From positions 2,912,501 to 2,976,500 of the forward strand of contig NZ_CP098023.1 of assembly GCF_030440425.1 (NCBI RefSeq): a DNA stretch of 64,000 nucleotides, in the 5' to 3' direction. A model generated the notes under the pieces. It searched no databases and was not told the origin of the DNA. It saw only the letters and a program-made list of their open reading frames with translations. The translations under genes and the position numbers were made by a program. Source of the DNA: Microbulbifer sp. MI-G (GTDB lineage: Bacteria; Pseudomonadota; Gammaproteobacteria; Pseudomonadales; Cellvibrionaceae). This document shows, one piece after another, positions 9,632 to 26,530 of this stretch. The first letter of the stretch is position 1, and every line of letters starts with the position of its first letter.

Positions 9632-10376
9632 GAGACGGATTCTTTAAAGAGAGCGGCCTCATCTTCGAGCCCCCGTCCCTGTGAATCATCCAACCCGGCA
9701 ATAATTTAAAGGAAGTAGAACGGGTATCAATAGTAAGGATACTCGCAGACTGCCAACCAGGCTCAACAGCGAAATCATCGATTCAAGTTCCCTGCCTGTG
9801 CCCGCCAAGCTGTGCCCTCTTGCTTGGAGGCAACCCCGTAACCACCAGACAAGAGGGCACCTTTTGGCTCCAAAAACCACATTGTGATTGTCGGTTTTAC
9901 GGTATCTCCACTATCCCGCTGGCCTGCCTCAGCAGCACTCTTAAATTTTACCTTGCGCTCTGTTTGCACTGTCTTTCCAATAATCAAGTTAGCGGATTTT
10001 CAGGCAGCTAGCCGATGTTTTTACCCACCAAAAAAATGGCACTGATTTAATGCTTTAAAGCGCCTTTGTAAGCAATCTGTAACATATGTGTGTTTACGTA
10101 TTTTCCATCTCGTCGATTGATTTTTCTGCTTTCCATTCCAAATGATTTACTTGCCTGTCAGCCAGAGTAATTTTCACTTGTGATGCTGCAATATTTTAAC
10201 CAAAACTTCATTTTTAGATTGTCGCCCAGTTGAATATTCGGCGTCTTTGCAGGGGTTGGTTGTTTATTCAATGCCTGGCCTCTGCTCTAAAGCGGGTGTT
10301 TGGTAATAGCTGTTTGAACAGTGCGGGAATTACAGGTGTGCTATCAGGATTTTCTATTCATGAGTAGGGGTGTGAT
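9632..10376. other. Gene-poor interval upstream of the first TonB receptor
   Basis: 745 bp without a convincing gene. Short frames on both strands lack ribosome-binding sites and family resemblance. The left part holds a long inverted repeat (9812-9860). The right part (about 10010-10250) is AT-rich and probably carries the promoter of the receptor at 10377, whose ATG is preceded by TAGGGGTG. Confidence 0.5.
9812..9860. repeat. 11-bp inverted repeat
   Basis: GTGCCCTCTTG (9812-9822) and CAAGAGGGCAC (9850-9860) are perfect complements around a 27-nt loop. The right arm is followed by CTTTTGG, a weak T-tract. It could terminate the csrA-like transcript, about 180 nt after its stop, or be a protein-binding palindrome. 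Confidence 0.6.
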
Positions 10377-13300
10377 ATGAGATTAAACGTTTCCAAAAGG
10401 TTGCTGTGTGCCGCTATTGGCATGGCTGTTACTGGCCAGCTGCAGGCTGCGGGGCTGAAGCTGGATTTATATGTTGATGCTGAGCCCGCCGGACAAATCG
10501 AGATATTGCTGAATGGCGAGCACCTGGGCTCCACTGACGTCAGGGGTTCCTTTTGGAGTGACGCCATTCCGTCAGGCCGACACCGACTGCAATTGGGCCT
10601 TGAAAAAGAATCGGAATCTTACGCCTTTACCGTAACAGAAGATGAGGCAGCCCTGGTTACCATCAACACCGATTCCGAGACCGGACGCAGTGTAAAATCC
10701 ATTCAGAAGATGGCGCTTTCAGCCGTGGATGGGCACGGTTTTTCATCGGAAACCTTCCCCCCTGAAAACCTGGCGCCAGGGGTTATTCAAGGCACGGTGA
10801 GCACGCTTGATGGAGAGCAGCCACTGCGCAATGTGACGGTTACGGTTGTCGGCAGCAGTGAGCAAACAGTTACAGACCGCTATGGTAATTTTGAATTACA
10901 GCTCGCCCCCGGCAACTACCAGCTGCAACTGGAACACCCCGATTACCAGACTGCCCAACTGAACGCGCTCCGGGTACTGTCAAAAATCAACCTGACCCTG
11001 GATGTGCAGCTTTCCACTGCCGATGTTTTTGCCGGTGAAGGGGGGGATACGCTGGAAGAGGTACAGGTTCTGGGCCGCTACCTACCGGGCAATCCCATTG
11101 AAATTGAGCGGGTGTCTTCGTCGGTTGTGGACAGCATAGATTTCACGCAAATAGCCCGTTTCGATGACTCCATGGTAAGCAGCGCGCTCAAGCGTGTGGT
11201 TGGCGTAACCCTTGAGGAGGATCGATTCCCCATTGTGCGTGGTATGAAAAGCCGCTACCAATCCACGGATTTCAATGGGGCGTTTCTACCCAGTACCGAC
11301 CCCGCGCGGCGCGACCTCCCCCTGGATATCTTTCCCGCTGGCATTATGCAGGGCCTGAGTTTGCAAAAAAGCGCATCGGCTGATGTGCCCTCCAGTGCAA
11401 CCGCGGGGCATATCTCCATGCGTACGAAAGAAGCACCACAGGAGGGGTTCTTTCAGGCTTCTTACTCGGCAAGCCATGGCGATATGCATGGGAATGACCT
11501 TTTGATGTCCGGCACCGAGGGGGACCGGGACTGGCTCGGTATGGATGATGGCTGGCGTGAGCTACCGGATGAGTTGGGGCAAACGCTGTTTTTGTACCTG
11601 AATGTAGAGCAAGATCCGGATAGTGTCGGCGAATTTACTGAAGAGGATATACAGAGAATAGCGCGCAGTATCCCCCACAATGGGATTGAAAAAGGTGAGG
11701 CACAAATTGACTCCAGCATCAGCTTTAGTGGCGGTAACAGCTGGGATATCGGCGAGCAGAACTTTGGCTTTATCAGTGCGGTGCGCTACTCGAACAAATG
11801 GAGTAACAATACCAAGCAGAATACCCGCTACGCTAAATTCAGCGAGGAACTGGAAATTGATTCTATTGTTGAGACCCATGATACCAACAATGTAATTGAC
11901 CTGAGTGCTATGCTCAATTTTGAGTGGAACATCAGCGATCATCACCGCCTGGGGCTGAATAATATTGCATTGCGCCACACCACCAATTCCGCTGAAATAT
12001 CAATACATCACGCTGCGCCGTCGTCTTTAAGGGGGGCCCTATCCGAAAGTCAAATTGAGGAAATCAAAGCCAATTTAGACCTTGAAAAATTCCTGTACCA
12101 GAATGTGGACTGGATTGAAGAACAGCTTTTGAGTCACCAACTTTGGGGAGAACACAGCTTCTCCTTATCCTCGCGCGGTGGCTGGATGAATTATTTGGGT
12201 GACCTTGAAGTCCAGTGGCAATTGATGGAAGCCACTAGTGAATATGATCGTCCGAATGCGACCCAGTACTCCTACAGGCGCGTGAACGGGTCTAGCTATT
12301 CACTCAATACCGCTAATTTTTCTCAATACAATTTATGGGAAGCAATGGAAGAGGATTCGTCTGGAAATAAATTGGACATTGCCCTGCCGATAGAGGGTTT
12401 TAATTGGGCCTCATTGGTACTCAAAGGTGGGCTTTTAACGATGCAGAGAAACCGGGACGGGGCCTATCACCATTACCAGCTTAAGAATGGCTCAACTCTG
12501 TCTCCGGAAATTTATCAAAACCCGGACCCAGCTCAAGTGTACACTCCAGAAAATATTGCCGGCAGCCCAGGTCGGTATGGTTTTTATTTGAGTATTGGCC
12601 GGATAATTGGCGAAAAGGATGTTGGGTTCTCCGGAGATAGCTATATCGCTGAACAGGACATTGATGCCGCCTATGGCCTTATTGAAATGGATATCCAGGA
12701 GAGATTCAAAGTAAATGTCGGTGTACGTAAAGAAAAGTACCGGTTTCTTGCGGAGCAATATGCCTATACTCCCGAGCCCCTGGTTGAGCTGTTGGATAAA
12801 GAGCGCACCTCCCCTTCGGTAAGTGTTACCTATCTATTGAATGACCAGTGGCAACTGCGCACCGCTTATTCCGAAACTGTCAGTTGGCCCGAGATTTACG
12901 AGATAATGCCCCGCGTCTTCTATGATATAGAAACCCTGGAGCGATATTCAGGGAACCCGGAGTTAAAACCCGCGGATATTGACAATATTGATATACGCCT
13001 TGAATGGTATCCCTCGGATTCGGAATCCATCACCCTGGCCTATTTTACCAAGGATATGATTAATGCAATCGAGAACCGCTTTGCCAAGAGCGGGGATGTA
13101 TTTGATTTCTACACTTTCGACAATGCGGAAAAGGCAGAAGTCTATGGGTGGGAGCTGGATCTGCGCCGGGAGTTCACCTTCGGGCGGGACCAGGGACACG
13201 AAGTCTTTGTGCAGTTTAATTACGCCGATATTCATTCAGAGGTGGAGACAACCGGTGGGCCTGATTTATTTCCGGTGTTGATAAAACGTGGGTTGCAAGG

Positions 13301-13628
13301 GCAGCCTGACTATGTCACCAACCTGCAGCTGGGCTATGACCATATTGACAGCGGTCAGGAAGTTACCCTGGTCTTTAACCGCAAGGGCAGAGAACTGGCC
13401 ATTGCAAACCCGGGCTTGGAAAAAGTGCCGTCCGATGTCTATGAGCTGCCCTACAATGATCTGCGCCTTATTTACAGGAAAAATTTTTTAAACGGATTGT
13501 CTTTTTCTGCCTCCATAGACAACCTGCTGGATGAAGAGCACCAAATGGTGTACGACGGCTTTAACACACCCTATTTAAACTATTCAAGCGGCCGCAAATT
13601 CAAACTGAAGGCCAGCTACAGCTATTAA
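10377..13628 (+). CDS. TonB-dependent receptor with carboxypeptidase-regulatory-like N-terminal domain
   Basis: A 1,083-residue outer-membrane receptor. A signal peptide (MRLNVSKRLLCAAIGMAVTG, cleavage near LQAAG) is followed by a PEGA-like region (about 25-110). A carboxypeptidase-regulatory-like beta-sandwich (about 135-215: GVIQGTVSTLDGEQPLRNVTV, TDRYGNFELQLAPGNYQL) comes next, then a plug (about 228-365: VQVLGRYLPG, FPIVRGMKSRYQSTDFNGAFLP) and a long beta-barrel ending in an aromatic residue (LKASYSY). The plug and barrel resemble the receptor at 21490-24459, but the N-terminal domain differs and the signalling STN domain is absent. The modular lipoprotein gene starts 91 nt downstream on the same strand, so the two are probably co-expressed and may act together. 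The ligand is unknown. Confidence 0.9.
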   Translation: MRLNVSKRLLCAAIGMAVTGQLQAAGLKLDLYVDAEPAGQIEILLNGEHLGSTDVRGSFWSDAIPSGRHRLQLGLEKESESYAFTVTEDEAALVTINTDSETGRSVKSIQKMALSAVDGHGFSSETFPPENLAPGVIQGTVSTLDGEQPLRNVTVTVVGSSEQTVTDRYGNFELQLAPGNYQLQLEHPDYQTAQLNALRVLSKINLTLDVQLSTADVFAGEGGDTLEEVQVLGRYLPGNPIEIERVSSSVVDSIDFTQIARFDDSMVSSALKRVVGVTLEEDRFPIVRGMKSRYQSTDFNGAFLPSTDPARRDLPLDIFPAGIMQGLSLQKSASADVPSSATAGHISMRTKEAPQEGFFQASYSASHGDMHGNDLLMSGTEGDRDWLGMDDGWRELPDELGQTLFLYLNVEQDPDSVGEFTEEDIQRIARSIPHNGIEKGEAQIDSSISFSGGNSWDIGEQNFGFISAVRYSNKWSNNTKQNTRYAKFSEELEIDSIVETHDTNNVIDLSAMLNFEWNISDHHRLGLNNIALRHTTNSAEISIHHAAPSSLRGALSESQIEEIKANLDLEKFLYQNVDWIEEQLLSHQLWGEHSFSLSSRGGWMNYLGDLEVQWQLMEATSEYDRPNATQYSYRRVNGSSYSLNTANFSQYNLWEAMEEDSSGNKLDIALPIEGFNWASLVLKGGLLTMQRNRDGAYHHYQLKNGSTLSPEIYQNPDPAQVYTPENIAGSPGRYGFYLSIGRIIGEKDVGFSGDSYIAEQDIDAAYGLIEMDIQERFKVNVGVRKEKYRFLAEQYAYTPEPLVELLDKERTSPSVSVTYLLNDQWQLRTAYSETVSWPEIYEIMPRVFYDIETLERYSGNPELKPADIDNIDIRLEWYPSDSESITLAYFTKDMINAIENRFAKSGDVFDFYTFDNAEKAEVYGWELDLRREFTFGRDQGHEVFVQFNYADIHSEVETTGGPDLFPVLIKRGLQGQPDYVTNLQLGYDHIDSGQEVTLVFNRKGRELAIANPGLEKVPSDVYELPYNDLRLIYRKNFLNGLSFSASIDNLLDEEHQMVYDGFNTPYLNYSSGRKFKLKASYSY

Positions 13629-13719
13629 AGAGACAGAAATTTACGCTGAATTGAGATAACTGGCGAGCAGGTGTAGCTGCGCCACTTACCAATTTCCAAA
13701 AGACCACTTGGATGGAATT

Positions 13720-16700
13720 ATGTCTAAGAGAAATGATTGCGCTATTGATACTATTCGCAAACAGATTGCCGATCGATTGGGGTCTTCCTTGCACAAGCGC
13801 TTGATATTACTGGGGAGCGCCCTGCTGTTGACGGCCTGTAGCGGCGAATCTTCCGATGAAATTGCACAGGAGCAGCCACTGGATTTATCCCTGCAGCAGT
13901 GTGAGCTGGCACAGGGGGGGGTGGTGGGTACCCCCATCGATCCGATAATGGTTGAGGGTGTTGAAACCCAGGCCTGCCGGTTAAATGCGGACTTTGGCCA
14001 GTCGGGAAAAATTAAACTGAAAACCAGCCACCAGTATGAACCCCTGGCCTGGGTACTGGATGGCGTTTACGACATAGGCCAGAGCAAACTCTACGCAACG
14101 CTGGCAGAGATACAGGCCGACGAGATTGTTGATGTCTCAGGGTCAGGATCGCTCGTCTATGCACGGGAAGGCAGCGTGATCGTGGTTCATCGCAATGCCC
14201 GCCTCGATATTAATATTGAGTCTATTGATGACAACCGTTCCGGTGGTGGTGAATGGGGCGGCGTTGTGGTGAACAGTATTGGTTATCACCCAGACTGTGG
14301 CGACAACATAAATAGCGAAAACTTCTGCAATATTCAAGGGCCCTGGGGTTACTACGGCGGCTTGTCCCGATCCGACACTCGCTATGGGCCTACAGTGCTG
14401 ACCGACAGTGCTATTGGTGGCGGCACCATTCGAACTGGTTTTCTTGGCTATGTGGCCGAGGCCGGGGGGGCCACGAAGAATAACCTCCCTCTGGAGGCCG
14501 CCGTTACCATTAATGCGCCACACTTCAAGCAAACCCGATCACCACAAGGCGTTCTATACAGCGCGAATACGGGCCTGGAACTCAATGGCGGCGCCTTGCT
14601 CGCAAGCATTTATGCTATGGGCAACCAGGGGCATGCGATTCACTGGCACAGTGGATTTGGCGGCCTGATAGGCAATGACCGCATTATTTATCACGCTAGT
14701 GACACAGTGGCCCTGAAGGGGGAAGCCAGCAGCCCGGCAATGCAAGAGGAACCTGGCGTTCAAATTGATCAGCTGACAGTGGTGGATAAAGCCCTGACCG
14801 CGGCCAAGGCCCTCGAAGTTTCCGGGGGCGGGGATATTGCCGTGGAGCACTTTGTGGTACAGGGGTTTAATACCTGCTTGAGTATTGCCGACCCAACAAC
14901 CCGGGTAGCTCTGGGCAACAGTGTGTTGTACTGCGATAAAACCAGCCGGGCGCTGGACGGTAAGCCCGACTATGCCGAGCCACTGCTCTCCCAGGGGGAG
15001 AATATCTATATCCTGAATCCGGATTTAAAGCCTGATCTGGCACTGGATAATGCGGCTATTCAAGGGGTTGCGAATGCAAAGCTAGCGAACCTACAGACTT
15101 CAAAGGTCTTATTAAATTATGATTTCCGCCTGCTGTACGAACCCTGCTTTGGTGTGGGCACGCCCCTCTCTGAAACCGTCGATATCGGGCCGAACACCTA
15201 CAGCGTTTGCGAATTGCAGGGCCAGGTAAACAGCAGCCTGTATTTTGATGAGGATATCAATGATGCATTTGTGGCCTGGCGCCTGAAAGGGCCGGTAACC
15301 TTTGGCAATGCACTGGCAGCCCTGAGTGGTGAAGCGCAGGTGGCCCACTTGCAGCAACCGAAAAAAGTGATTTTGGATGGAGACTCCAAACTGCTGCTGG
15401 ATGCCACTTCTTCACTGACTTTCCATGCGGATGTTGCCCTCAATGTGCGGGGCAGTGCAGATGATCCGGTAGCGCTGACAGCCCGGGATGCGGAGGTGCA
15501 CTGGGCGGGGATGACCATTAACGGCCTGGACAACCAGTGTGCCAGTGAAGCGGCCTGTGCACTGGCTGCCCAGCCCCGGGTCAATATCCAATACCTGCGT
15601 TTGCTGAATGCAGGTAATGGCCAGCCCACCCTCAAACTCCAGCATGTGGGTGCCGGAGCTGAGCTCAACCACCTGGATATTGCCTACTCCCAGACCGATG
15701 GCCTGGCCCTGGATGGCGGTGCAGCGAATATCGACTGGCTTCTGGTTTCGGACGTCAAAGACGACCTGGTCAGCTGGGCGAACGGCTATCGCGGCACGCT
15801 GCAATATGCCATTTTACAGCCGGGGGACGAGTCCAGCGGCCATGCCCTGCTGGGCCGCAATAATCCCGCAGACCACAACGCTTCACCGCGCTCGCGCCCG
15901 GTTATGGCGAATATCCTCCTACAGGGCGCGGAGAGTTCGGATAACGCCATTTTGCTGGAGGATGGCTCCGGTCTGTTGCTCTACAACTCCGTAGTGACCG
16001 AGTTTGCCACCTGCCTGGATATCGATGACCCGGCCACCTCGGACCTGCAGTTCAGCGACCCGCTGGAAATCTATTTCGACAATGTGGTGCTGGATTGCGG
16101 CCGGACCGTTCCAGATGAAGACGAACACGGCGGGCGCGATTTTGCCGCCGCCACCCAGGGGCTCAGCGGTGTGTACGAAGTGGCTGCGGTACTGGACAGC
16201 AACTTTGTCGCCACCGGTGGCGATATTCCCGACATCGACACCGGGATTGATCTCACCCTGGCCGGCGACGCCGCCCGCTACCTGAACGCCAATGTGGGCT
16301 ACCTGGGCTCTGTACTGGACTCCCTGGACGACTGGTACCAGGGCTGGAGCGACTCTGTGGCGGTATTGCTGGCCGCCGAATGTGACTATAAAGCCGTGCT
16401 GGAGAAGGATTACCTATACGAAAAATCAGGAAGCGTATATAAAGTCTGCGGCCTGCGCGGCACAATTACCGAGGACTTTATCATTACCACCTTTACCGGC
16501 GAAGACCGGGTGGCTATTGAAAACGGGCACCAGGTGAATGAAGAGGTCTATCCGGGGTATTTTCTGGAGCGGGACCCGGCACCGACCCTGTGGCTGATAA
16601 ACGGCCTGGTCAGGATCGGTGAAGGGCACCTGGCCATTACCGACACTGCCCAGGTGGCGGCGATGAAGGCCGATCCGGTAACCCTGGGAATGGAAGCTTC

Positions 16701-18108
16701 CAGCATTGTGATGGTTACCAAGGGCGGCGGCCTGCATATTACCCGCGGCGGCGCCCTGGAAGTGATTGGCGATGTCAGCCTGACCAATACGCAGCGCGAT
16801 GGGGATGCCGCCGGACCAGTCAATTTGATAGGTCTTATTCCTCCTACATCAGGTTTAACTATCCCCGTAGGCTACCCCTGGAATGGGGCGGCGGGTACCT
16901 GGGCCGGTTTGATCATCGATGGTTTTGCCCGCAACAACCAGTGCCCGGAGGCCATGGCGGAACCCGGCAGCCGTGTCTGTAATATCCAGGGGGAGTACGG
17001 CTACCACGGCGGTTATGATGACAACCACGGCAATGTGAATATTGAAAATCTACATCTGCTGCAGGGCTCGCTGCGCCTCAACAGTGTCGGCCGCGGCGGT
17101 AAGATTGAGAATCTGTACTTTGGTCTGGGGGATTTAAGTGGGATTCCCCGTACACCCGCGGCCTGGGGCAGTGAGAACGTTGGCCGCGCGGCGATTGATA
17201 TTAATGGCGGTGTGGTAAATCTGCGCAACGTCCAGATTGCTAATTCAGTACCTGGCTATAGTCTCCGCTGGAATCATGGATACCGGGGCACTATGCAATC
17301 TGTTTATATTGAGGACTCCGGATTTACCAATACTTTTAGTAGTTCTCAAGTGGAATTTTTCAGCACTCTTATGCAAAAAGCGGGGACATGGTATGACTAT
17401 CCCACGATTTCCGGGCGCAGTGGCGAGCCAGATGCACTGCCGCGTTCCATGCCCACTATAGCCAATCTTGCCTTACACAGAGCGGATTCGCTCATGTTTT
17501 ATGACCCCACGGCCCCCAGCGTTACAACAACGGCGCTGGAACTTGGCAGTGGGAGCGGCTTGTTTTTACACAATAGTATTGTTGGTGTTGACAAATGGAC
17601 TGATATTGATTTTCCGGGATTTTTTGGTGTCACTGCTGTGGTTGACCAATGTATCTCTTTTGGTGAGGGCGTCACACCACTACTGGGCGAGGGTATTATT
17701 TTTGATCAAGTGGCCTTTGCCTGTAAGGAAATGTCCCAGGACCCAAACCTGGCGAACCAGATTGACAATCGCTTTCGTACTCAAGCAGTCAATAACCAAA
17801 CCGGTATTGTAAGTAACGCCTCCACTATTTCGCTGCCGAGCCAGGCGACTAGTGATATTTATTATTCTGACTGGGTGTTTGGTGCAGAACAAGAGTCTTC
17901 TTTTGAAGAGATCGACGGTGTCAACTCGTTTGGCGAGTGGCGCCGTCTCTATCCGGCAACCAATTTGATCAATCTGGGTAAGGCCGATCCCGACTATTCC
18001 GAATCAGAGCCTGCTGATATGAATTTCTTGATAGACAGCCCCTTCTTTGGTGCCAGCGACTATTTTATTCCCATCAATGCCGGAGAGGAAATTCCCGGGG
18101 AAGATTAA
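13720..18108 (+). CDS. Large surface lipoprotein of three beta-helix-like modules
   Basis: A predicted 1,462-residue lipoprotein. The lipobox LLTAC (Cys about 40) follows the hydrophobic LILLGSALL, after an unusually long 25-residue n-region. The rest falls into three tandem modules of about 415, 410 and 575 residues (coding about 13880-15130, 15140-16370 and 16375-18105). Each opens with a Cys pair (ACRLNADFG, SVCELQG, KVCGLRG). Modules 1 and 3 then have WGGVVV or WAGLII, a Cys pair and CNIQGxxGYxGG. All three have a short-strand repeat region with HSGFGG, NGYRGT or NHGYRGT. The same signature makes up the whole of the two smaller proteins at 18485 and 20019. A right-handed beta-helix or solenoid is likely. 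ATG at 13720 is preferred to TTG at 13708, with weak SD support. It is followed by a strong terminator. Function unknown. Confidence 0.85.
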   Translation: MSKRNDCAIDTIRKQIADRLGSSLHKRLILLGSALLLTACSGESSDEIAQEQPLDLSLQQCELAQGGVVGTPIDPIMVEGVETQACRLNADFGQSGKIKLKTSHQYEPLAWVLDGVYDIGQSKLYATLAEIQADEIVDVSGSGSLVYAREGSVIVVHRNARLDINIESIDDNRSGGGEWGGVVVNSIGYHPDCGDNINSENFCNIQGPWGYYGGLSRSDTRYGPTVLTDSAIGGGTIRTGFLGYVAEAGGATKNNLPLEAAVTINAPHFKQTRSPQGVLYSANTGLELNGGALLASIYAMGNQGHAIHWHSGFGGLIGNDRIIYHASDTVALKGEASSPAMQEEPGVQIDQLTVVDKALTAAKALEVSGGGDIAVEHFVVQGFNTCLSIADPTTRVALGNSVLYCDKTSRALDGKPDYAEPLLSQGENIYILNPDLKPDLALDNAAIQGVANAKLANLQTSKVLLNYDFRLLYEPCFGVGTPLSETVDIGPNTYSVCELQGQVNSSLYFDEDINDAFVAWRLKGPVTFGNALAALSGEAQVAHLQQPKKVILDGDSKLLLDATSSLTFHADVALNVRGSADDPVALTARDAEVHWAGMTINGLDNQCASEAACALAAQPRVNIQYLRLLNAGNGQPTLKLQHVGAGAELNHLDIAYSQTDGLALDGGAANIDWLLVSDVKDDLVSWANGYRGTLQYAILQPGDESSGHALLGRNNPADHNASPRSRPVMANILLQGAESSDNAILLEDGSGLLLYNSVVTEFATCLDIDDPATSDLQFSDPLEIYFDNVVLDCGRTVPDEDEHGGRDFAAATQGLSGVYEVAAVLDSNFVATGGDIPDIDTGIDLTLAGDAARYLNANVGYLGSVLDSLDDWYQGWSDSVAVLLAAECDYKAVLEKDYLYEKSGSVYKVCGLRGTITEDFIITTFTGEDRVAIENGHQVNEEVYPGYFLERDPAPTLWLINGLVRIGEGHLAITDTAQVAAMKADPVTLGMEASSIVMVTKGGGLHITRGGALEVIGDVSLTNTQRDGDAAGPVNLIGLIPPTSGLTIPVGYPWNGAAGTWAGLIIDGFARNNQCPEAMAEPGSRVCNIQGEYGYHGGYDDNHGNVNIENLHLLQGSLRLNSVGRGGKIENLYFGLGDLSGIPRTPAAWGSENVGRAAIDINGGVVNLRNVQIANSVPGYSLRWNHGYRGTMQSVYIEDSGFTNTFSSSQVEFFSTLMQKAGTWYDYPTISGRSGEPDALPRSMPTIANLALHRADSLMFYDPTAPSVTTTALELGSGSGLFLHNSIVGVDKWTDIDFPGFFGVTAVVDQCISFGEGVTPLLGEGIIFDQVAFACKEMSQDPNLANQIDNRFRTQAVNNQTGIVSNASTISLPSQATSDIYYSDWVFGAEQESSFEEIDGVNSFGEWRRLYPATNLINLGKADPDYSESEPADMNFLIDSPFFGASDYFIPINAGEEIPGED

Positions 18109-18134
18109 TGGCGCCTTCTTAACAAGAACTTCCC

Positions 18135-18166
18135 AAAAAGGCCGGCAATTGCCGGCCTTCTTTTTG
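18135..18166 (+). terminator. Rho-independent terminator after the modular lipoprotein gene
   Basis: The self-complementary stem GGCCGGCAATTGCCGGCC is flanked by AAAAA on the left and TTCTTTTTG on the right, 27 nt after the stop codon. It closes the receptor-lipoprotein unit. Confidence 0.9.
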
Positions 18167-18484
18167 CTTGCGGGGCAGCCATACAGCTTTATCCGGTTGT
18201 GGTGATCTCAGTCGATTATTTGTAATACTATAGTCATTACCCACCCACTTTTTGTTATAAAAATTTAATGTCGCAACCGAAACTTTTTTCCGCCTCTGAA
18301 TTTCTTTTTATTCTTTTTGGTTCTGTTTATTTTTTTAAAATAAAAAAAGAATCTAGATATTATGATTGACTGACATATGGCGCGTTTAAATTGTCATGGC
18401 CTGGCAGAGTGATAGCAGCCGGGAGTGGTAAACAAAGCGATATTTATCAAGTTATAATTTAATGTCCAGTAGGTGGAACTTGTG
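18167..18484. other. AT-rich upstream region of the first single-module gene
   Basis: 318 bp without a gene. The middle (about 18235-18370) is very AT-rich and contains an A/T palindrome (TTTATTTT, TTT, AAAATAAA) near 18327-18345, which may be bent promoter DNA or an UP-element-like stretch. AGGTGG at 18471-18476 is the ribosome-binding site of the next gene. Confidence 0.5.
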
Positions 18485-19732
18485 ATGAAAAAGGTAATGA
18501 CTTCCGTTGCACTGATGGCTTTGGCTTCAGTTTCTTATGCGGATACAGATTTGGGTCTCGATACAGTTTGCAACTCTAATGGTACCTTTCAAGGTACAGT
18601 AATCTTTAATGGTGCGACTTATTTGCGCTGTGATCTGCCGGCCTCTATAGCGGTAAACGATACGGTCGTGCTTGCCAAAAGCAGTGCTACACCACCCTTC
18701 CTTCCGATTGTATGGGCGCTGCCCGGTATTGTTGTGGTGGGTAATGGCCAGCTCCAGAACGCCAATCCCAGCACGGTGGATAAGACTGTACTGAAGATTG
18801 AGGCGGGTGCACAGATCGCCGGTGCGGTAGACAGTAACTCCGCGCTGGTTATTACCCGCGGTGCGCAGATTGATGCCCAGGGTACTAATATTGATCCCAT
18901 CATATTTTCCTCTATCGATAACGATATAACTGGTTCCGGTGAGTGGGGCGGTTTGGTGCTGGCAGGGTATGGTGAAAGCAATGCCTGCCCCAGTGCCAAC
19001 GGGCAAGACCTGTGTGAAATGGAAGGTGTTGCTTCGGCCTTTTACTATGGTGGCGGAAGGTACCTGGACGAAACCATGAGTAGCGGCAACCTGCAGTATG
19101 TGGTAATTGCCGAGGGCGGCCATGAAGTGGCTATAGCCAGTGAAATCAATGGTCTGACGCTCTACAGCGTGAACAGCAGCACCAGTATTAATCATGTACA
19201 TATTCACAATAACCAGGACGACGGTATTGAGTTTTTCGGTGGCGATGCCGGAGTTGAGAACCTATGGCTGACTTGTAATCAGGATGACAGCGTGGATTGG
19301 GACGAAGGCTACCGCGGATCTCTGAACAATGTGAGTATTGCCCAGGGAGACAATGCCGACCACGCCTTCGAACTGGCCAACAACCCGGACTCCGAAACTG
19401 CCGCACCCATTGCGCGCGGTGTTGTTACCAACGTCACCGTTGGTTTTGTGGGCAGCACCGCCGGCTCTACCGATGTTCCCCTGAAGCTCAAGGAAGGCAC
19501 CGACGCCTACTTTGAAAATGTGGAAATTCTCGGCTATACCGGACAGGCTTGTAACGACGCCGTCAGTGCTATTAGCAGCAGCTCTACCACCTTTAGCGGC
19601 AATGTCTTCAATACCATGGAATACGATTGCACCCGCGTTATCGATAACACCAGCTATATGACGCTGCCGGCCTCTACCTCAGCTACGGGTTTTAGCTCTG
19701 CCTCCTTCTGGAATGCCCCGAGTTGTGATTAA
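18485..19732 (+). CDS. Secreted single-module protein A (same family as lipoprotein modules)
   Basis: A 415-residue exported protein with signal peptide MKKVMTSVALMALASVSYA and mature start DTDLG. Two N-terminal Cys (DTVCNSNG and LRCDLPAS) are followed by an ordered strand-rich region, the GEWGGLVLAGYGESNAC signature, LCEMEG, and FYYGGGRYLDE. Further on are YRGSLNNV after a CNQDDSVDWDEG segment, and C-terminal paired Cys (ACND, YDCTRV, PSCD). It equals one module of the lipoprotein at 13720. Start: ATG 18485 with AGGTGG 8 nt upstream; an in-frame GTG at 18473 is less likely. It has its own terminator and a tandem paralog downstream. No enzymatic motif was recognised. It may be a periplasmic or surface binding protein for a receptor in the locus (inference). 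Confidence 0.85.
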   Translation: MKKVMTSVALMALASVSYADTDLGLDTVCNSNGTFQGTVIFNGATYLRCDLPASIAVNDTVVLAKSSATPPFLPIVWALPGIVVVGNGQLQNANPSTVDKTVLKIEAGAQIAGAVDSNSALVITRGAQIDAQGTNIDPIIFSSIDNDITGSGEWGGLVLAGYGESNACPSANGQDLCEMEGVASAFYYGGGRYLDETMSSGNLQYVVIAEGGHEVAIASEINGLTLYSVNSSTSINHVHIHNNQDDGIEFFGGDAGVENLWLTCNQDDSVDWDEGYRGSLNNVSIAQGDNADHAFELANNPDSETAAPIARGVVTNVTVGFVGSTAGSTDVPLKLKEGTDAYFENVEILGYTGQACNDAVSAISSSSTTFSGNVFNTMEYDCTRVIDNTSYMTLPASTSATGFSSASFWNAPSCD

Positions 19733-19792
19733 GCATTCAGATCTGTTGAGTTTTACTTCTGCCAATTAGATGGCGTGTTTTGTAAATTTGGG

Positions 19793-19820
19793 AAAAGCCG
19801 GCACCTGCCGGCTTTTCTTT
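19793..19820 (+). terminator. Rho-independent terminator after single-module gene A
   Basis: The stem AAAAGCCGGCA/TGCCGGCTTTT with a 2-nt loop is followed by CTTT, 60 nt after the stop codon. It separates the two paralogs, which must therefore have separate promoters or depend on read-through. Confidence 0.85.
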
Positions 19821-20018
19821 GCGTCTTATGCAAAGACACCCCGGCAACCACAACCCCCCCGATTTTCTGGCGGGATTTACTGTTTACTCTTGGGGCGATG
19901 TATCCGATCCAGACAATGAGCGAGACGCAATAACTGTTTGCATTGATTAAATATACCCAGCAATTGTGCTGCTTGAGTTTTTTATTGTTCTCTGTTTAGT
20001 AAACCTGTGGAGTTTATG

Positions 20019-21269
20019 ATGAAAAAGGTAATGGCTTCTGTTGTTCTGATGGCTTTGGTTTCAGTTTCTTATGCGGATACAGATTTGGATCTCGATGCAT
20101 TTTGCAACTCTAATGGCACCTTCCAAGGTATTGTAACCCTCAATAACACGAATTATTTGCGCTGTGATCTGCCGACCTCTATAGCGGTAAACGATACGGT
20201 CGTGCTTGCCAGGGACAGTGATCTAGCCCCCCTCTTTCCGATTGTATGGGCACTGCCCGGTATTGTTGTGGTGGGTAATGGCCATCTCCAGAACGCTAAC
20301 CCCAGCACGGTGGATAAAACAGTACTGAAAATAGAACCGGGTACTCAGATTGTTGGTGCGGTATACAGTAACTCCGCACTGGTTATTACCCGCGGTGCGC
20401 AAATTGATGCCCGGGGTACCCCTAGTGATCCCATCGTATTCTCCTCTATTGACGATGATATGGCGGACACCAGTGAGTGGGGCGGTTTGATCTTGGCAGG
20501 TTTTGCTGAAAGCAATGGGTGCCCCAGAGCTAATGGACAGGACACTTGCGAAATGGAAGGTCTAGCTACTCCCTATTACTATGGTGGCGGAAGGTACCTG
20601 GACGAAACTATGAACAGCGGTATTCTGGAGTATGTGGTGATTGCCGAGGGGGGCCATGAAGTCGCTCTTGAAAGCGAAATTAATGGCCTGACGCTCTACA
20701 GCGTGAATAGCAGCACCACAATTAATAATGTGCATATTCACAATAATAAGGATGATGGTATTCAGTTCTTTGGGGGGGATGCCGCTGTCGAGAACCTGTG
20801 GCTGACTTGTAATCGCGATGATAGTGTGGATTGGGAAGAAGGCTTCCAAGGATCTCTTTCTAATGTCTTTATCGCTCAGGGTGATGATGCTGATCACGCC
20901 TTCGAACTGGCCAGTGGGTCGAGGATTTTTTGGCCCGGTAACCGAACGGCGCGTGGCGTTGTTACCAACGTAACAGTTGGCTTTTACGGTAGCTCCTCAG
21001 GTTTTACCGATGTTCCCTTGAAGCTCACATGGGGTACCGATGCTTATTTCGAAAATATAGAAATTAGTGGATATACACAGAATTTGTGCAACGATACCGT
21101 TCTTGCTGCCAGTACCAATCCAGATCGTATCTTTGCATTTAACAACATGCAGTACGATTGCACCCGCGTTATCGATAACACCAGCTATATGACGCTGCCG
21201 GCTTCTGCTTCAGCTACGGGTTTCAGCGTTGCCTCCTTCTGGAATGCCCCTACCCCTAGGTGTGAGTAA
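20019..21269 (+). CDS. Secreted single-module protein B, tandem paralog of A
   Basis: A 416-residue exported protein, aligned with A over its full length and clearly more than half identical. The signal peptide is MKKVMASVVLMALVSVSYA. All the same landmarks occur: CNSNG, RCDLP, SEWGGLILAGFAESNGC, TCEMEG, YYYGGGRYLDE, the CNRDDSVDWEEGFQGSL region and C-terminal Cys (LCND, YDCTRV, PRCE). Identity is patchy: the signal peptide, the WALPGIVVVGNG block and the C-terminal block are near-identical in DNA, while loops after the YGG motif differ. The start at 20019 is preceded by TGGAG; 20016 is an alternative. No clear terminator follows before the receptor at 21490. Function unknown. Confidence 0.85.
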   Translation: MKKVMASVVLMALVSVSYADTDLDLDAFCNSNGTFQGIVTLNNTNYLRCDLPTSIAVNDTVVLARDSDLAPLFPIVWALPGIVVVGNGHLQNANPSTVDKTVLKIEPGTQIVGAVYSNSALVITRGAQIDARGTPSDPIVFSSIDDDMADTSEWGGLILAGFAESNGCPRANGQDTCEMEGLATPYYYGGGRYLDETMNSGILEYVVIAEGGHEVALESEINGLTLYSVNSSTTINNVHIHNNKDDGIQFFGGDAAVENLWLTCNRDDSVDWEEGFQGSLSNVFIAQGDDADHAFELASGSRIFWPGNRTARGVVTNVTVGFYGSSSGFTDVPLKLTWGTDAYFENIEISGYTQNLCNDTVLAASTNPDRIFAFNNMQYDCTRVIDNTSYMTLPASASATGFSVASFWNAPTPRCE

Positions 21270-21489
21270 TGAAAAGCCCCCGCAAGTTTTGCTCTACATC
21301 TGGCAGCTTTATCCTGTGCCTTTTTTGACCCGCCACTACCCACACAACAAGAGAGGCAGACCGGGCTATTTGCGCTACCGCAGTGGTCCGGACCTGTAAC
21401 TACACAGTGGGTTTTGCTGAGCTGCGGGCCCGCCTTGTCATACAATGGTAATAACCCTCTGAGAGCATCGGCAAGCTAAAAATCAAGAA

Positions 21490-24459
21490 TTGCTGATTAA
21501 GCGCTTGCCGGGGTACTGTCTGAATACCATTTCTGTTCAAGAATACGGGTTATTGCGGCGACTTGGTCAATTACTGGCTGCCTGGGGCCTCCTGCTGTCC
21601 CTATGGGTTTTGGCACTGCCGGTACCCCAGGTTATAGCCGCAGCACAACCCTCCGGTACTTTCGAGCCAGGTAAGCCGCTGCCGTTATTGACCGTGCTGC
21701 AAAACCTGGCGGATGAATATCATTATCAATTGGTGACCGATCCATTACTGGTGCGGGCTCAGCAGGTGCCGGTACCTGTGCAGGGCACCAGTATGGAGTC
21801 GCGTCTGGGCGCGCTGCTCAGCCCCTTTGGGCTGCGCTATGATTTGATCGAGCGCACTCTGGTGGTGTATCGAGAGAAAGCGGCCATACCCTGGGAGGAT
21901 GAGCCCCGCCCCTACTCCGGGTATTCCGGGGCGATTGCGGAAGTAGAGGTCAGTGCCCAGGCGTTGGCACCGACTCAGGCTGGCAGCCTGGGTTATGGCG
22001 GTGAGCGTTATATGGGCGGAGCGGACGCCAGTATCAATTTCAGGGAAATGCGCTCCCAGGGGATTACCGATCTCGCTTCTGCATTTGAGTTGGTCTCCGG
22101 CGTTAAAATGGAACAGAACCGCTACGCGGTAATACGTGGCTTGCGCGGGCGCTATCAATCCGTCCGTCTCAATGGGGCGGTGCTGCCCAGTTTGGAACCC
22201 TCCAGCCAGCGGGTGCCGATGGATATCTTTCCGGTGGAGATTTTAAGCCATGTGGATTTACATAAATCGGTGCTTGCCGATGCGCCGGGCAATGCCAGTG
22301 CCGGTGTTGTTAATATTGAAACCCGGCGCATTTCCACCGAGAACACCCTGAACCTGGTTGCCGGCAGCGCCTATACGGGCGGCACCACCGGCCAGGCGGT
22401 TTTGCGCGGCTATACCGGTGATCGGGATTGGCTGGGTTCACTGGACCCACAGCGCAAACTGCCAACGGCCATTGCCGGGGGCGCTCACTATGGAAACCTG
22501 GATCATTGGCCGGAGGCCGAGCGGGAGGCGGCGGGAGAATCAATACCCACCCACTATGCGCTCACCAAAGGTACCGCAGGGATGGATGGACTACTGAGCC
22601 TGAGTGGTAGCTATCACTGGCAGCAGGGGGACCATCACTGGGGCGTGAGTGCCTCCCTGGGGTATGAAAACCGTTGGCAGCAAGTGGACCAGCAATCCCA
22701 GGTTATGAGCCGGCGCAATCTTGTTTCAGCCAACGATGAACTCAAAGAGGTATACCTGGCTAGCGAAACTTCACAACACCGCAGGCTGGATAACCAGATC
22801 AATGCCAATACCCTGGTGGCATTCGCCTATAGCTGGCGAGACACACAGCATATTGGAGCCAATTATCTGTTGCTGAGGCAAAGCTCCCTTTACAGCGAGC
22901 AGATTAAAACCCAGGAGCCCGGTTCGAGCTATTTTTATGCTGAACCGGAGCGCCTGCGCAGCCTGCACCACTGGACGGGTAAGCAGGTATGGCTGGGGCA
23001 GTTTTATGGCAGCCACCTGATTGACTCCAGTGCGCTCTGGGATCTGCAGTGGCATTTAACCTCGGCGAGTTCCCGCTACCTGCGCCCTTATGAGGTTGAC
23101 TTTCAGTATCTGCGTCCAGCACCCTCCCTATCCTACCGCTTCGACACCAGCAGCAGTGGTTTTCAGGTGAGCTGGGAGCAGATGCAGGAGGAGAGTTTTA
23201 GTAGTGGCATCAGTGCTGTGCGGGACTGGTCTCTGGATACCCTGTCTGGCGATATCAAGGTGGGGTATGAATTGTTGAACAGTCTTCAGGACGGCTACTT
23301 ACTGGAATATATTTTTACCCCCAAGGGAGATATAGATTCAAGCTGGAAGCTGTTGGAGCAGAATGATCCCGCAGAGATACTCACGCCCGGAAATATTATT
23401 GGCAAACCCGGTGCCGATGGTTTCCTCTTAAATGATCCCATACACATTAATATGAATTCTGCAGCATTAGATGGTAACTTTTACTGGGCCAAACGCAGAA
23501 ATCGTGCCCACTACTTGCTGGCGAACAGCTATTGGAATGAACACTGGACGTTTTTACTGGGAGTGCGGCACGAGCGGGAAACGGTAAAGGCGGATTTCTG
23601 GGATCTTGCCCCGCAAGGCTGGGTACCCTTGCTTGACGAGGGGCACAATCTATATTCCGCAGCACTCAATTATATTCCCTCTGGTTTGCGCAACCTGCGT
23701 TTAGGATACAGTGAAACCGTGGTTTGGCCCAGCGTTAACGAGCTGATGCCGAAACGGTATGAGGATGTTGATTTACGTATCCATGTGACGGGCAATCCGT
23801 ATTTACAGATTGCACAGGTCAGGAATTGGGATCTGCGCTGGACCTACAATAACCGCGACCGGGATTTCGAGATGAATTTCCTGGCCTTCCACAAAGATAT
23901 TGACAATGCGATTGAAGGTGTTTTTTTTGACCCTGTGCGCAGAGCAGATGCCATATTTAATGTTTACAGTTATATAAATACCCGCGCTGCAAAGCTTTAC
24001 GGTTGCGAGTTGGAGATGGATTACTCCAGGGTTATGGGCAACACCCATCAGTTCACTGTGGGAGCCAGTTATTCCCATATGTATTCCGAGGTGGAAATTC
24101 CCGAAAGCTTAGAGGCTCAGACCGGCAAAAGGCCCCTGCAAGGGCAGCCGGAACACCTGGTGAATCTGCACCTACAGTACAACCACCTGCCAAGTGAACA
24201 GCGTCTCTCCTTAAGGTATAAGCACTCTGGGCGCGAGCTGTTTATTGTCAGTGACACCCGCGATGTACCCCATGTATACCGAAACAGCTCCAATAATCTT
24301 TCTCTGAGTTATTCCCTGCGCTTTATGCCCAATCTCCATGGGGTTATCTCTGTAGAAAACCTTCTTCAGGACGAACACCGCTACAAGCAAGCAGGCCAAC
24401 TTTTTATGGGCTATAAAGAAAACCGAAAATTTCGGCTGCGTATCTCTGTAGATTTCTGA
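21490..24459 (+). CDS. TonB-dependent transducer/receptor with N-terminal STN domain
   Basis: A 989-residue FecA-type outer-membrane receptor. After a hydrophobic signal (about residues 25-50) comes a secretin/TonB short N-terminal domain (about 62-125: LTVLQNLADEYHYQLVTD, LGALLSPFGLRYDLIERTLV), the periplasmic domain that speaks to a FecR anti-sigma factor. The plug contains YAVIRGLRGRYQSVRLNGAV, and the barrel ends LRISVDF. Plug and barrel resemble the receptor at 10377 (shared RYQS, NGA.LPS and DIFP elements). No ATG fits the N-terminus: the only starts are TTG codons, with TTG 21490 giving a complete signal region but no good ribosome-binding site. The gene converges on fecR/fecI-type genes, with 15 nt between stop codons. 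The ligand is unknown. Confidence 0.88.
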   Translation: MLIKRLPGYCLNTISVQEYGLLRRLGQLLAAWGLLLSLWVLALPVPQVIAAAQPSGTFEPGKPLPLLTVLQNLADEYHYQLVTDPLLVRAQQVPVPVQGTSMESRLGALLSPFGLRYDLIERTLVVYREKAAIPWEDEPRPYSGYSGAIAEVEVSAQALAPTQAGSLGYGGERYMGGADASINFREMRSQGITDLASAFELVSGVKMEQNRYAVIRGLRGRYQSVRLNGAVLPSLEPSSQRVPMDIFPVEILSHVDLHKSVLADAPGNASAGVVNIETRRISTENTLNLVAGSAYTGGTTGQAVLRGYTGDRDWLGSLDPQRKLPTAIAGGAHYGNLDHWPEAEREAAGESIPTHYALTKGTAGMDGLLSLSGSYHWQQGDHHWGVSASLGYENRWQQVDQQSQVMSRRNLVSANDELKEVYLASETSQHRRLDNQINANTLVAFAYSWRDTQHIGANYLLLRQSSLYSEQIKTQEPGSSYFYAEPERLRSLHHWTGKQVWLGQFYGSHLIDSSALWDLQWHLTSASSRYLRPYEVDFQYLRPAPSLSYRFDTSSSGFQVSWEQMQEESFSSGISAVRDWSLDTLSGDIKVGYELLNSLQDGYLLEYIFTPKGDIDSSWKLLEQNDPAEILTPGNIIGKPGADGFLLNDPIHINMNSAALDGNFYWAKRRNRAHYLLANSYWNEHWTFLLGVRHERETVKADFWDLAPQGWVPLLDEGHNLYSAALNYIPSGLRNLRLGYSETVVWPSVNELMPKRYEDVDLRIHVTGNPYLQIAQVRNWDLRWTYNNRDRDFEMNFLAFHKDIDNAIEGVFFDPVRRADAIFNVYSYINTRAAKLYGCELEMDYSRVMGNTHQFTVGASYSHMYSEVEIPESLEAQTGKRPLQGQPEHLVNLHLQYNHLPSEQRLSLRYKHSGRELFIVSDTRDVPHVYRNSSNNLSLSYSLRFMPNLHGVISVENLLQDEHRYKQAGQLFMGYKENRKFRLRISVDF

Positions 24460-24474
24460 TTCCTGTTATACCGT

Positions 24475-25461
24475 TTAAGGAGTTTGTTCCTCTGAGCTTT
24501 CCAATACCGTATGCGACCCCTGGTGTTGAATTTTCAGGTTGTGCAGCTTGGCTAAAATCTGGATATTGGTATCGATTTTTTTCAGATCGAAACTCCCACT
24601 GACCAGCAGGCTTCCAATCTCGTGTCCTTTGGTGGTTAGGGGGGTATCGGTAAAGCGGTTAAATTCTACCAGGAGATCCGAAAGCCGCTGATTCTTCACC
24701 TGGATATATCCATCTATCCAGCTTTTATAGTTGGCCAGGTCGAAAGTCTTTATGGCACCAGTACTGTGCTCGGTGATCCTCAGCATTTCTCCAGCAGCCA
24801 CTACAAAGCGTTTTCTTGTTTGCTCAAGTGGATTAACGACGACTTCACCTTCAAGAACGGTTAACTCGGTAAATCCATATCGCTGATCCACGTTAAAGAT
24901 AGTCCCCAGGGCACGTATGGATGCCTGGCGGGATTCTACGACAAATGGACGACTTGGGTCCTTGGCAACAGAGAACTGGGCTTCGCCGTTAAAAAGACGA
25001 ATGCGCCTTTTTCGTTCGTTATAACTCACTGCCACCTTGGTTGTGGCACTGAGGTCCAGGATACTGCCATCTGTGAGTTTTTGCCTACTCACCTGTTTCG
25101 GTTCCGTCTGATATATACGTTTGATTGTTCTTTGTGTATTTGAGTTATACATAATGGTGGTTGTTATCACTAAAACTAAACTTGCGGCAATTGCCAGATA
25201 CCATGGGCGCATGGGTGTCTTTCTGGAAGTTAACCGCTCCCTGTGACTGGCTTGCTCGATTTTCAGAAGTGCCTGCGCAAAACTCTGATGATTCCAAATA
25301 CGCTCTATTCTTTGAGCCAGTGCCCTTCTCACTGGGCTCTCGTGCAGCCAGCCTTCAAAATCCTTGACTTTTTGTGGGCTCGCTTGCTCCTTAGCGCCGT
25401 GGATAAACCAGGATAATATTGCTTGTTCTTCCTGTGGGCTGATTGGAATTTCTTTGTTCAT
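24475..25461 (-). CDS. FecR-type anti-sigma / signal transduction protein
   Basis: A 328-residue inner-membrane regulator. The N-terminal cytoplasmic DUF4880-like segment (ILSWFIHGAKE, FEGWLHESPVRRALAQR) is followed by one transmembrane helix (about 87-104, PWYLAIAASLVLVITTTI). Then comes the periplasmic FecR domain (about 120-215: LTDGSILDLSATTKVAVSY, GEAQFSVAKDPSRPFVV) and a C-terminal STN-like segment that would contact the receptor. The start at 25461 (MNKEIPIS) has AAGG just upstream; an earlier in-frame start at 25545 would overlap the sigma gene. It follows the sigma gene by 55 nt. It likely holds the sigma factor inactive until the STN receptor binds ligand. Confidence 0.9.
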   Translation of the reverse strand: MNKEIPISPQEEQAILSWFIHGAKEQASPQKVKDFEGWLHESPVRRALAQRIERIWNHQSFAQALLKIEQASHRERLTSRKTPMRPWYLAIAASLVLVITTTIMYNSNTQRTIKRIYQTEPKQVSRQKLTDGSILDLSATTKVAVSYNERKRRIRLFNGEAQFSVAKDPSRPFVVESRQASIRALGTIFNVDQRYGFTELTVLEGEVVVNPLEQTRKRFVVAAGEMLRITEHSTGAIKTFDLANYKSWIDGYIQVKNQRLSDLLVEFNRFTDTPLTTKGHEIGSLLVSGSFDLKKIDTNIQILAKLHNLKIQHQGSHTVLESSEEQTP

Positions 25462-25516
25462 AGTAACCTTATCTTCACAATTTAACCGTCCACTACGTGG
25501 ATCAAATTCTTGAAGG

Positions 25517-26032
25517 TTAAAAATGTTGCGCCATATTCTGCTCAATCATCTTAAGCGCCCGATTGAGTTTTTTTTCCACAGCCTTTACGGAGATATCCAT
25601 CTGTTCAGCGATTTCGATATTGCTCTTTCCGTACAATTTACGCATAACAATAATATTTCGAGTTGTTACCGGCAGCCTGTTGAGCAGCTTGATAAACATG
25701 GCGAGGCGCTGCTGGTTATCCACTCTCTCCTCAGGCTGTGGATCCTGACTGGTAATATCGTCGCTCAGTACTTCCATCGTATAGGCATTTCCCCGCCGCA
25801 TACTGTCATTGATGAGATTGATAACGACGCGGTACAAATAACCTATGGGATTCTCGAGTTGTTCATTGTTGCTGATCTGCCGGGTTAACCGGGTTACGGC
25901 CTCCTGATAAATATCTTCCGTTTCCTGTGTGTTGCGAACTCGTTTTCTGATGAAATTTAATATCTTCGGTCTTTCTTCTGATAACGCCAGAAAGACGCTT
26001 TTGTTGGCAGCGTCTGGTTGATTTATCTTCAC
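25517..26032 (-). CDS. FecI-like ECF sigma factor
   Basis: A 171-residue ECF sigma-70 factor. Region 2 is recognisable in ILNFIRKRVRNTQETEDIYQ and NPIGYLYRVVINLINDSMRR. Region 4 is seen in LNRLPVTTRNIIVMRKLYG and SNIEIAEQMDISVKAVEKKL. The start is GTG at 26032. Downstream, on the same strand, is the FecR-type gene, and facing them is the STN receptor: a complete cell-surface-signalling set. Likely targets are the receptor and modular-protein genes at 10377-24459 (inference). Confidence 0.92.
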   Translation of the reverse strand: MKINQPDAANKSVFLALSEERPKILNFIRKRVRNTQETEDIYQEAVTRLTRQISNNEQLENPIGYLYRVVINLINDSMRRGNAYTMEVLSDDITSQDPQPEERVDNQQRLAMFIKLLNRLPVTTRNIIVMRKLYGKSNIEIAEQMDISVKAVEKKLNRALKMIEQNMAQHF

Positions 26033-26049: not shown

Positions 26050-26530
26050 TCTGACATAAAGAGCGGTCTTATCCCTGTGCCTGCTGCTATAAGGCAAAGA
26101 CGTATGAGCCTGGACTTTGCGACATGTTTTTTTGATTTCAGGTGACGTTACTAGGCAGGCAGGAGGGAAGCCTACCCCGCTCCCAGAACCGTATGAGGCA
26201 TGGGTGCCGATACGCGCATGCAGGGAGCAGGATCTGCTTTCCTTCCAACCCGGTAGTTATATTCCTTTCTGGTGCATGAATCGAAGTGCACAGAGAAAGA
26301 CACCGCATAGCCAATACCCAAGTGATTCCACTTGGCAAACCAACCGTACACTCTCTCAAACCCTGTGCAAGGGGTCGCTGGCAATACAGCGGGCTTGAAT
26401 GTGTCCCCATCCCTGCGAAGACGCTGGGCACACGCTGGGGCGACAGCTACTCAATGAAGATTTGGTTAAATCTTGCAGCACAACTGTTGCAGCAAACCGA
26501 AGGACATTGACCGGGGGAAAAGGATCGCGC
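26050..26530. other. Unassigned interval rich in small inverted repeats
   Basis: About 480 bp between the ECF sigma gene and recX without a credible gene, but with much local self-complementarity. Examples are CCAAGTG-ATTC-CACTTGG (26318-26335), CGTAT/ATACG enclosing GGC/GCC (about 26190-26213), outer arms GCTCCC/GGGAGC (about 26179-26228), CGCTG/CAGCG (about 26376-26391) and a direct repeat of CGCTGGG near 26422-26440. On the minus strand a segment reading CATACGGTTCTGGGAG resembles, loosely, the part of group II introns just before the ORF. A degenerate group II intron or another structured RNA are both possible. It borders the DNA that separates recX from alaS. Confidence 0.3.

Follow-up and report, generated by a model that had tools for sequence, protein, structure and literature searches.

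An ElpS-type lipoprotein-receptor cassette with candidate cell-surface-signalling genes in Microbulbifer sp. MI-G

Within a 64,000-nucleotide stretch of the 4.48-Mb genome of Microbulbifer sp. MI-G (the window), we analyzed a seven-gene locus that encodes two TonB-dependent receptors (TBDR1 and TBDR2), a large lipoprotein (LP), two smaller proteins with Sec-type signals (S1 and S2), and a FecR-type regulator with an extracytoplasmic function (ECF) sigma factor. All seven open reading frames (ORFs) read at the coordinates first described for them, with S2 having 416 rather than 415 aa. On the forward strand, TBDR1 (10377–13628), the proposed transporter, consists of a CarboxypepD_reg extension (residues 137–212), a plug, and a barrel, and is followed after a gap of 91 bp by LP (13720–18108), a 1,462-aa ElpS-family lipoprotein with a lipobox cysteine at residue 40 and three eroded β-helix modules (about residues 37–396, 462–806, and 879–1341). 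A terminator-like hairpin with a T-run lies 3′ of LP (18138–18159, forward strand); it is a consensus match only, in a region with 27 such hairpins versus 16.4 in shuffled sequence, and because of its position, TBDR1-LP and S1 are probably separate transcripts. S1 (18485–19732, 415 aa) and its paralogue S2 (20019–21269, 75% identical) follow on the same strand, each with a signal assigned by eye. Next is TBDR2 (21490–24459, forward strand), the receptor nearest to TBDR1 and the proposed transducer, for which the TTG start is uncertain. Its STN signalling domain (21670–21885, forward strand; about residues 61–132) was placed by profile comparison. On the reverse strand lie the FecR-type anti-sigma regulator (24475–25461; PF04773 with an E-value of 1.4e-19, and a FecR model with an E-value of 1e-39, under that model's cut-off) and the FecI-like ECF sigma factor (25517–26032; sigma-70 regions 2 and 4 in Pfam, TIGR02937 above cut-off). 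Pfam and NCBIfam models thus confirm both members of the sigma/anti-sigma pair in the initial annotation.

The S proteins and LP matched no Pfam or NCBIfam family. When S1 is compared to LP, three regions of LP are matched at 23–25% identity (BLAST E-values of 4e-18, 4e-11, and 3e-07), which indicates three real but very diverged modules, and the predicted model of S1 is a right-handed β-helix (pLDDT of 91.8). Homology to ElpS of Caulobacter crescentus (CC0170) was judged via a stand-in, the protein at L176, one of 20 loci that we took from genomes in the order to which a Euryhalocaulis metagenome-assembled genome (MAG) belongs; we take this order to be Caulobacterales. The L176 protein is 32% identical to S1 over 294 aa (E-value of 9e-29) and matches LP with an E-value of 5e-9, while the L176 receptor is 25% identical to TBDR1 over 898 aa. 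If read from a GTG start, which was picked because it fits, the L176 protein has the published features of ElpS (LAGC at residues 17–20, N38, and a mass of 49.4 kDa from N38), and its gene is followed by those of the receptor, gspC, and gspD. Compared through this stand-in, LP, S1, and S2 are members of the ElpS family of right-handed β-helices. The family is present in 20 of the 274 genomes of an even class sample (own genome included) and in 93 of 120 genomes from the order of the Euryhalocaulis MAG. The nearest named relatives in both the S and LP searches are from Microbulbifer, with the LP search giving 27 proteins at E ≤ 1e-10. The LP matches include a Steroidobacter protein with a locus-tag number adjacent to that of an S protein.

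In C. crescentus, the genes for ElpS (CC0170, CCNA_00169), the receptor CC0171, and the type II secretion system (T2SS, from cc0172) adjoin one another (PMC2996285). Excerpts of that study describe ElpS as a surface lipoprotein made under phosphate starvation, about 50 kDa when mature and cut before N38, which reaches the surface without the T2SS by an unknown route; a functional interaction between ElpS and CC0171 was suggested by its authors (PMC2996285). Our locus had initially been called undescribed, and this is too strong, as LP and the S proteins fall within the ElpS family, of which one lipoprotein, ElpS, has already been published with its receptor partner CC0171. What is new here is not the family but a variant of the ElpS-receptor pair with a three-module LP, S proteins, a signalling receptor, and FecR/ECF genes. 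We found no paper on an ElpS-family cassette with FecR/ECF among the open-licence papers listed, where ElpS is the only family member that we found with experiments.

The modules of LP and the S proteins differ in a set of acidic residues. The motif DDGxE...DDSxD is intact in S1 (D245, D246, E249, D267, D268, D271, and E296), and S2 keeps these residues except for E249, which is replaced by Q. When relatives are classed by ORF length rather than by counted modules, and with own-genome rows recurring, the acidic residues are kept at 92–100% in short-ORF relatives (about 79 rows) and at 95–98% in relatives of 750–1150 aa (about 115 rows); in the longest class, where intact proteins are pooled with eroded ones, just 55–71% of rows retain the seven residues. 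An Alteromonas protein of 1,366 aa has all seven in each of its three modules. Among the window-type LPs inspected (those of the window, L225, L227, L228, L231, and L009), most of the acidic residues are gone from the aligned modules, and in the LP of the window, module 2 retains three of the seven and module 1 retains E249 only. The initial annotation had described a three-module lipoprotein with one-module paralogs; the three modules are real, but they are not equivalent to the paralogs, being eroded in LP where S1 is intact. In our reading of these alignments, an active or metal/ligand site may have moved to the soluble S proteins, with LP left as the structural partner of TBDR1.

This split bears on an alternative in which the β-helix proteins are enzymes, or activators of enzymes, that act on an extracellular phosphorus compound or polysaccharide, with the receptors importing the product. 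We regard this alternative as possible but doubtful: a common fold is no proof of activity, the published assays on refolded or immunoprecipitated ElpS gave no sign of a phosphatase (PMC2996285), and the acidic site is largely lost from LP, so that LP at least is unlikely to be such an enzyme.

The family is also linked to TonB receptors. In 67 of 80 loci (79 named loci plus L007, a second locus in the own genome), a receptor ORF lies on the same strand within 600 bp of the family member, and 8 of the 13 other loci run into a contig end. The β-helix gene comes first in 52 of the 67 and the receptor in 15. At distances greater than 3 kb, there are three receptor ORFs (five at E 1e-3) in 740 kb of flanking sequence, counted with a profile built from these loci's own receptors, so that the number of flanking receptors of other types may be too low; with the looser cut-off of E 1e-3, every adjacency count was unchanged. 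Because the 79 loci are the best of at least 571 encoders and are biased to close kin, the even class sample was used as a check. There, a member lies within 2.5 kb of a same-strand receptor in 16 of 19 other genomes, the exceptions being G202, G240, and G257, the last with a receptor 6.2 kb away. By locus, the distance is below 600 bp in 13 of 26 and below 2.5 kb in 16 of 26, with five of the rest at contig ends. Homologs of the modular proteins are thus mostly found beside a TonB receptor; the opposite pattern, which the initial annotation had named as grounds for refutation, is not seen.

Such tight pairing of one receptor with one β-helix gene in most loci would also suit an export function, in which the partner receptor would use TonB energy to export the β-helix protein across the outer membrane or would be its surface-display pore, as Oar is for PopC in Myxococcus. 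The T2SS-independent route of ElpS to the surface (PMC2996285) would agree with this, as would the finding that Oar, a receptor with a CarboxypepD_reg domain, is needed for PopC secretion (PMC6434023). TBDR1 shares this N-terminal extension with the Oar-type secretion transporter, and we found it in 10 of 35 hand-picked receptors beside the family. In the other 25 receptors scanned, however, CarboxypepD_reg was not detected, and according to the same excerpts, Oar without the domain still secretes and the domain also occurs in importers such as SusC (PMC6434023). Furthermore, the presence of a second, signalling-domain receptor is more in keeping with ligand sensing than with export, which we consider unlikely here.

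The two receptors of the locus are related to each other. TBDR1 and TBDR2 are 29% identical over about 860 aa (starting at residues 244 and 172, respectively), and Pfam detects the barrel in both and the plug in TBDR2, the plug match of TBDR1 being under cut-off. The CarboxypepD_reg domain of TBDR1 is matched by Pfam with an E-value of 6e-15, and the score of TBDR1 against the SusC/RagA model (29.8) is under its cut-off of 368. These results agree with an earlier description of a second receptor with a related plug and barrel and a different N-terminal domain. The STN assignment of TBDR2 is supported in a different manner: Pfam does not find the domain on the window protein and matches three of the six members of a TBDR2 profile weakly (best E-value of 0.0057), but the six-sequence profile of the N-terminal region matches the PupA signalling domain 2a02 (E-value of 5.9e-5) and, weakly, FecA (E-value of 0.09), in favor of a FecA/PupA-like domain on the STN receptor proposed initially. 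At E 1e-40, the sole other match of TBDR2 in its own genome is TBDR1. In a tree of 110 receptors, inferred with a quick method and without an outgroup, TBDR1 and TBDR2 with their Oceanobacter counterparts form sister clades (SH-aLRT of 100). The two receptors therefore look like sister duplicates by sequence, and either the duplication is older than the versions of both genera, or the cassette moved between Microbulbifer and Oceanobacter.

We resolve two forms of ElpS-family locus within Microbulbifer. The family occurs in 43 of 48 genus genomes, of which a shorter, single-locus member is found in 41 of 48 (open frames of about 550–620 aa, with one of 372), and this shorter member has a partner receptor at every locus that we read, namely that of the own genome and four others. 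The own-genome example, L007:8520–13148 (C1:1624520–1629148), encodes a lipoprotein of 590 aa and, after it, a TonB receptor of 912 aa; gspC/gspD-like genes lie some 4–5 kb downstream. A three-module LP together with S is found in 9 of 48 genus genomes, and the order TBDR1-LP-S-TBDR2-FecR-ECF is complete in seven of these nine cassettes. S is a single gene in most cassettes, double in the window, and represented by three S-like ORFs, two of them partial, in L231. In six of the nine cassettes, the stretch fetched does not contain the recA/glpK neighbours of the window. Outside the genus, gene content and order are the same in an Oceanobacter MAG (L009), except that TBDR2 is inverted, and a second Oceanobacter locus (L010) has the S-to-ECF part at a contig end.

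The cassettes also have a promoter-like box in common, found by aligning their upstream regions. In the window, this ECF-type box (TGTCGC-N16-CGTC) lies before TBDR1 (10220–10245, forward strand), with its first base 157 nt before the TBDR1 start; before S1 (18269–18294, forward strand), as TGTCGC-N16-CGCC, whose second half has one mismatch; and before the sigma gene (26099–26124, reverse strand), where it may serve autoregulation. Between the sigma gene and recX, about 390 nt upstream of the former, is a second TGTCGC-N16-CGTC box (26420–26445, reverse strand). The box precedes TBDR1 in eight of the nine genus cassettes, lies at the start of the TBDR1 open frame in L009, and in its exact N16 form precedes S in five of nine. 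Across ten cassettes, two of which (L228 and L229) are near-identical there, we count 19 matches at a spacing of 16 and 0 or 1 at each other spacing from 5 to 30 (0.56 expected); 16 of the 19 lie before TBDR1, S, or the sigma gene and three elsewhere in the cassettes. The upstream regions of TBDR1, S, and the sigma gene do not resemble copies of one another. A loose search at spacings of 13–19 gives three matches in the window, a number reached by 4 of 100 shuffles, and a longer form (TGTCGC-N14-18-CGTCTT) has four matches in the own genome, three of them in this locus, versus eight for a reversed-pattern control. From the position of the box and its copy before the sigma gene, we infer that the ECF factor of the window recognizes it. 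The cassette is a real, conserved variant of the ElpS-receptor pair that looks co-regulated, and the kept order and common box support the initial proposal that its genes form one system.

Taken with the family and its predicted fold, the receptor linkage, the acidic site kept in some proteins and lost in others, and the close relationship between TBDR1 and TBDR2, gene order and box suggest that the locus is probably an outer-membrane uptake system of the ElpS type, controlled by a cell-surface-signalling set of its own. In this model, S1 and S2 would be soluble single-module proteins that capture or pre-process a ligand outside the membrane, like a hemophore or SusD-like protein, and LP would be a surface lipoprotein that sits on or near TBDR1 and docks the ligand there. 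TBDR1 would import the ligand with TonB energy, and TBDR2 would sense the ligand or loaded S and signal via FecR to the ECF sigma factor, which would transcribe TBDR1-LP, S1, and itself from TGTCGC-N16-CGTC promoters.

Several observations weigh against this model. Two of the nine cassettes (L224 and L226) have TBDR1-LP-S without TBDR2-FecR, and whole-genome searches of both gave only distant FecR proteins and TBDR1 itself, with no close TBDR2 or FecR copy, such that the signalling half is dispensable. An exact box precedes the sigma gene in only two loci (the window and L225), none lies within 400 nt of S2 or TBDR2, and L226 has no exact box. The halves of the box are not an independent test, having been read off the same upstream regions of related cassettes, although the spacing count is independent. 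The short form has eight own-genome matches, three of them here, compared to 17 and 23 for the reversed control, and it is thus clustered at the locus rather than abundant or enriched genome-wide. The signals of S1 and S2 are of the Sec type only, which does not imply crossing of the outer membrane. The receptor tree is flagged for long branches and unusual composition, the TBDR2 clade included. In the published excerpts on C. crescentus, deletion of elpS left supernatant phosphatase unchanged, deletion of the receptor did not stop ElpS production, and cc0171 was expressed independently of elpS (PMC2996285). The two cassettes without TBDR2-FecR and the missing box before TBDR2 would also be expected if TBDR2-FecR-ECF were a separate signalling set of the iron type that lies by chance next to a TBDR1-LP-S system. 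We consider such a coincidence very improbable, as the order is kept in most genus cassettes and in Oceanobacter, six of the nine lack the recA/glpK context in the stretch fetched, TBDR1, S, and the sigma gene have the same box upstream, and TBDR2 is closest to TBDR1.

For the uptake model, a phosphorus compound is our leading guess as ligand, by analogy to ElpS and the Pho genes near relatives. Among the 80 loci, the neighbours include PhoR (16), PstS (11), PstB (8), PhoU (5), and a response regulator (18, with PhoB possibly mixed with others), along with a DUF3450-like protein (25; the family name is presumed), a long ExbB/TolQ-like protein (25), a second ExbB-like protein (21), a TPR-type protein (15, by eye), and TonB (14). 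In NCBIfam searches with one member each, PhoB, PhoR, PstS, PstB, PhoU, and the TonB C-terminus pass cut-off, ExbB/TolQ and GspC score under it, and the DUF3450-like and TPR neighbours have no match. Clusters of gspC, gspD, and gspE lie downstream in 8 of the 80 loci and gspF in seven, all alphaproteobacterial by title or tree place, with the gspC example scoring under the NCBIfam cut-off; this order of receptor and then gspC/gspD/gspE is that published for ElpS in Caulobacter. FecIR systems are known chiefly in connection with iron carriers, which weighs against phosphorus. Excerpts of later studies report that induction of elpS is PhoB-dependent (PMC5172544) and that the T2SS and several TonB receptors are in the PhoB regulon (PMC11208175). 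A search for Pho boxes, based on the E. coli consensus, gave two matches in the window, both outside the locus, where 4.7 would be expected, and is a further point against a phosphorus ligand. Own-genome matches (132 and 139, versus 155 and 134 for reversed controls) were rejected as evidence; the best of them, with one mismatch, is at C1:4107685. More speculatively, and with rather low confidence, the receptor-ElpS pair may be a so far unrecognized, general machine at the surface of Pseudomonadota that is powered by TonB and comparable to SusCD, but with a β-helix protein as partner. The lineage of the window would then have an LP scaffold without the site and S1/S2 shuttles that collect a non-iron nutrient, most likely a phosphorus compound, for TBDR1, with the duplicate TBDR2 reporting loaded shuttles to the sigma factor, and this would amount to a hemophore-like system for phosphorus.

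When compared to known systems, the locus is most like ElpS/CC0171 in its β-helix family and in a lipoprotein gene that adjoins a related TonB receptor. Beyond the Caulobacter system, it has the eroded three-module LP, S proteins from genes of their own, a signalling-domain receptor in addition to TBDR1, and FecR/ECF; it differs in that no Pho box was found and no match to gspC or gspD occurs anywhere in the 64-kb window, gspC/gspD-like genes lying near L007 of the same genome. As in FecI-FecR-FecA signalling, there is an ECF sigma factor, FecR, an STN receptor, and a common promoter-like box, but the box lies upstream of the second receptor with its lipoprotein and of an S gene, and none was found upstream of the STN receptor. 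The Has hemophore system (HasA, HasR, HasI, and HasS) is similar in combining a secreted capture protein with an STN receptor and a sigma/anti-sigma pair, whereas the S proteins of the window match no family in Pfam or NCBIfam. SusCD and BtuBG likewise join a TonB receptor to a dedicated lipoprotein partner; here, the partner is a β-helix of another family, and the complex is putative. As the surface-signalling reviews and studies that we found are mostly on iron carriers and haem, a phosphorus ligand, if true, would make this a TonB route for phosphorus under a type of control mostly known for those compounds. In PUMA3 (VreA-VreI-VreR) of Pseudomonas aeruginosa, a surface-signalling sigma factor governs the T2SS and alkaline phosphatase; VreA is without a barrel, and the excerpted text describes no ElpS-family gene (PMC2729926). 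The receptor pairing, the split between eroded and intact sites, and the sigma-type box offer direct tests of the function of these proteins.

Some further features were observed in the relatives. L224, although without TBDR2-FecR, has a sigma gene (L224:18710–19237) that is 70% identical to that of the window and lies upstream of TBDR1. Between S and TBDR2, five relatives encode an extra protein of about 170–190 aa with a signal-like start (L227:9831–10418, L228:7199–7777, L229:7046–7645, L230:6879–7472, and L231:12507–13106), of which none was seen in the window; in L230 and L231, an N16-type box is found about 450 nt upstream of this ORF. In the same interval, the two Oceanobacter loci have a short ORF with a FecR-like N-terminal match (L009:11533–11946 and L010:1243–1809), in addition to the full FecR.

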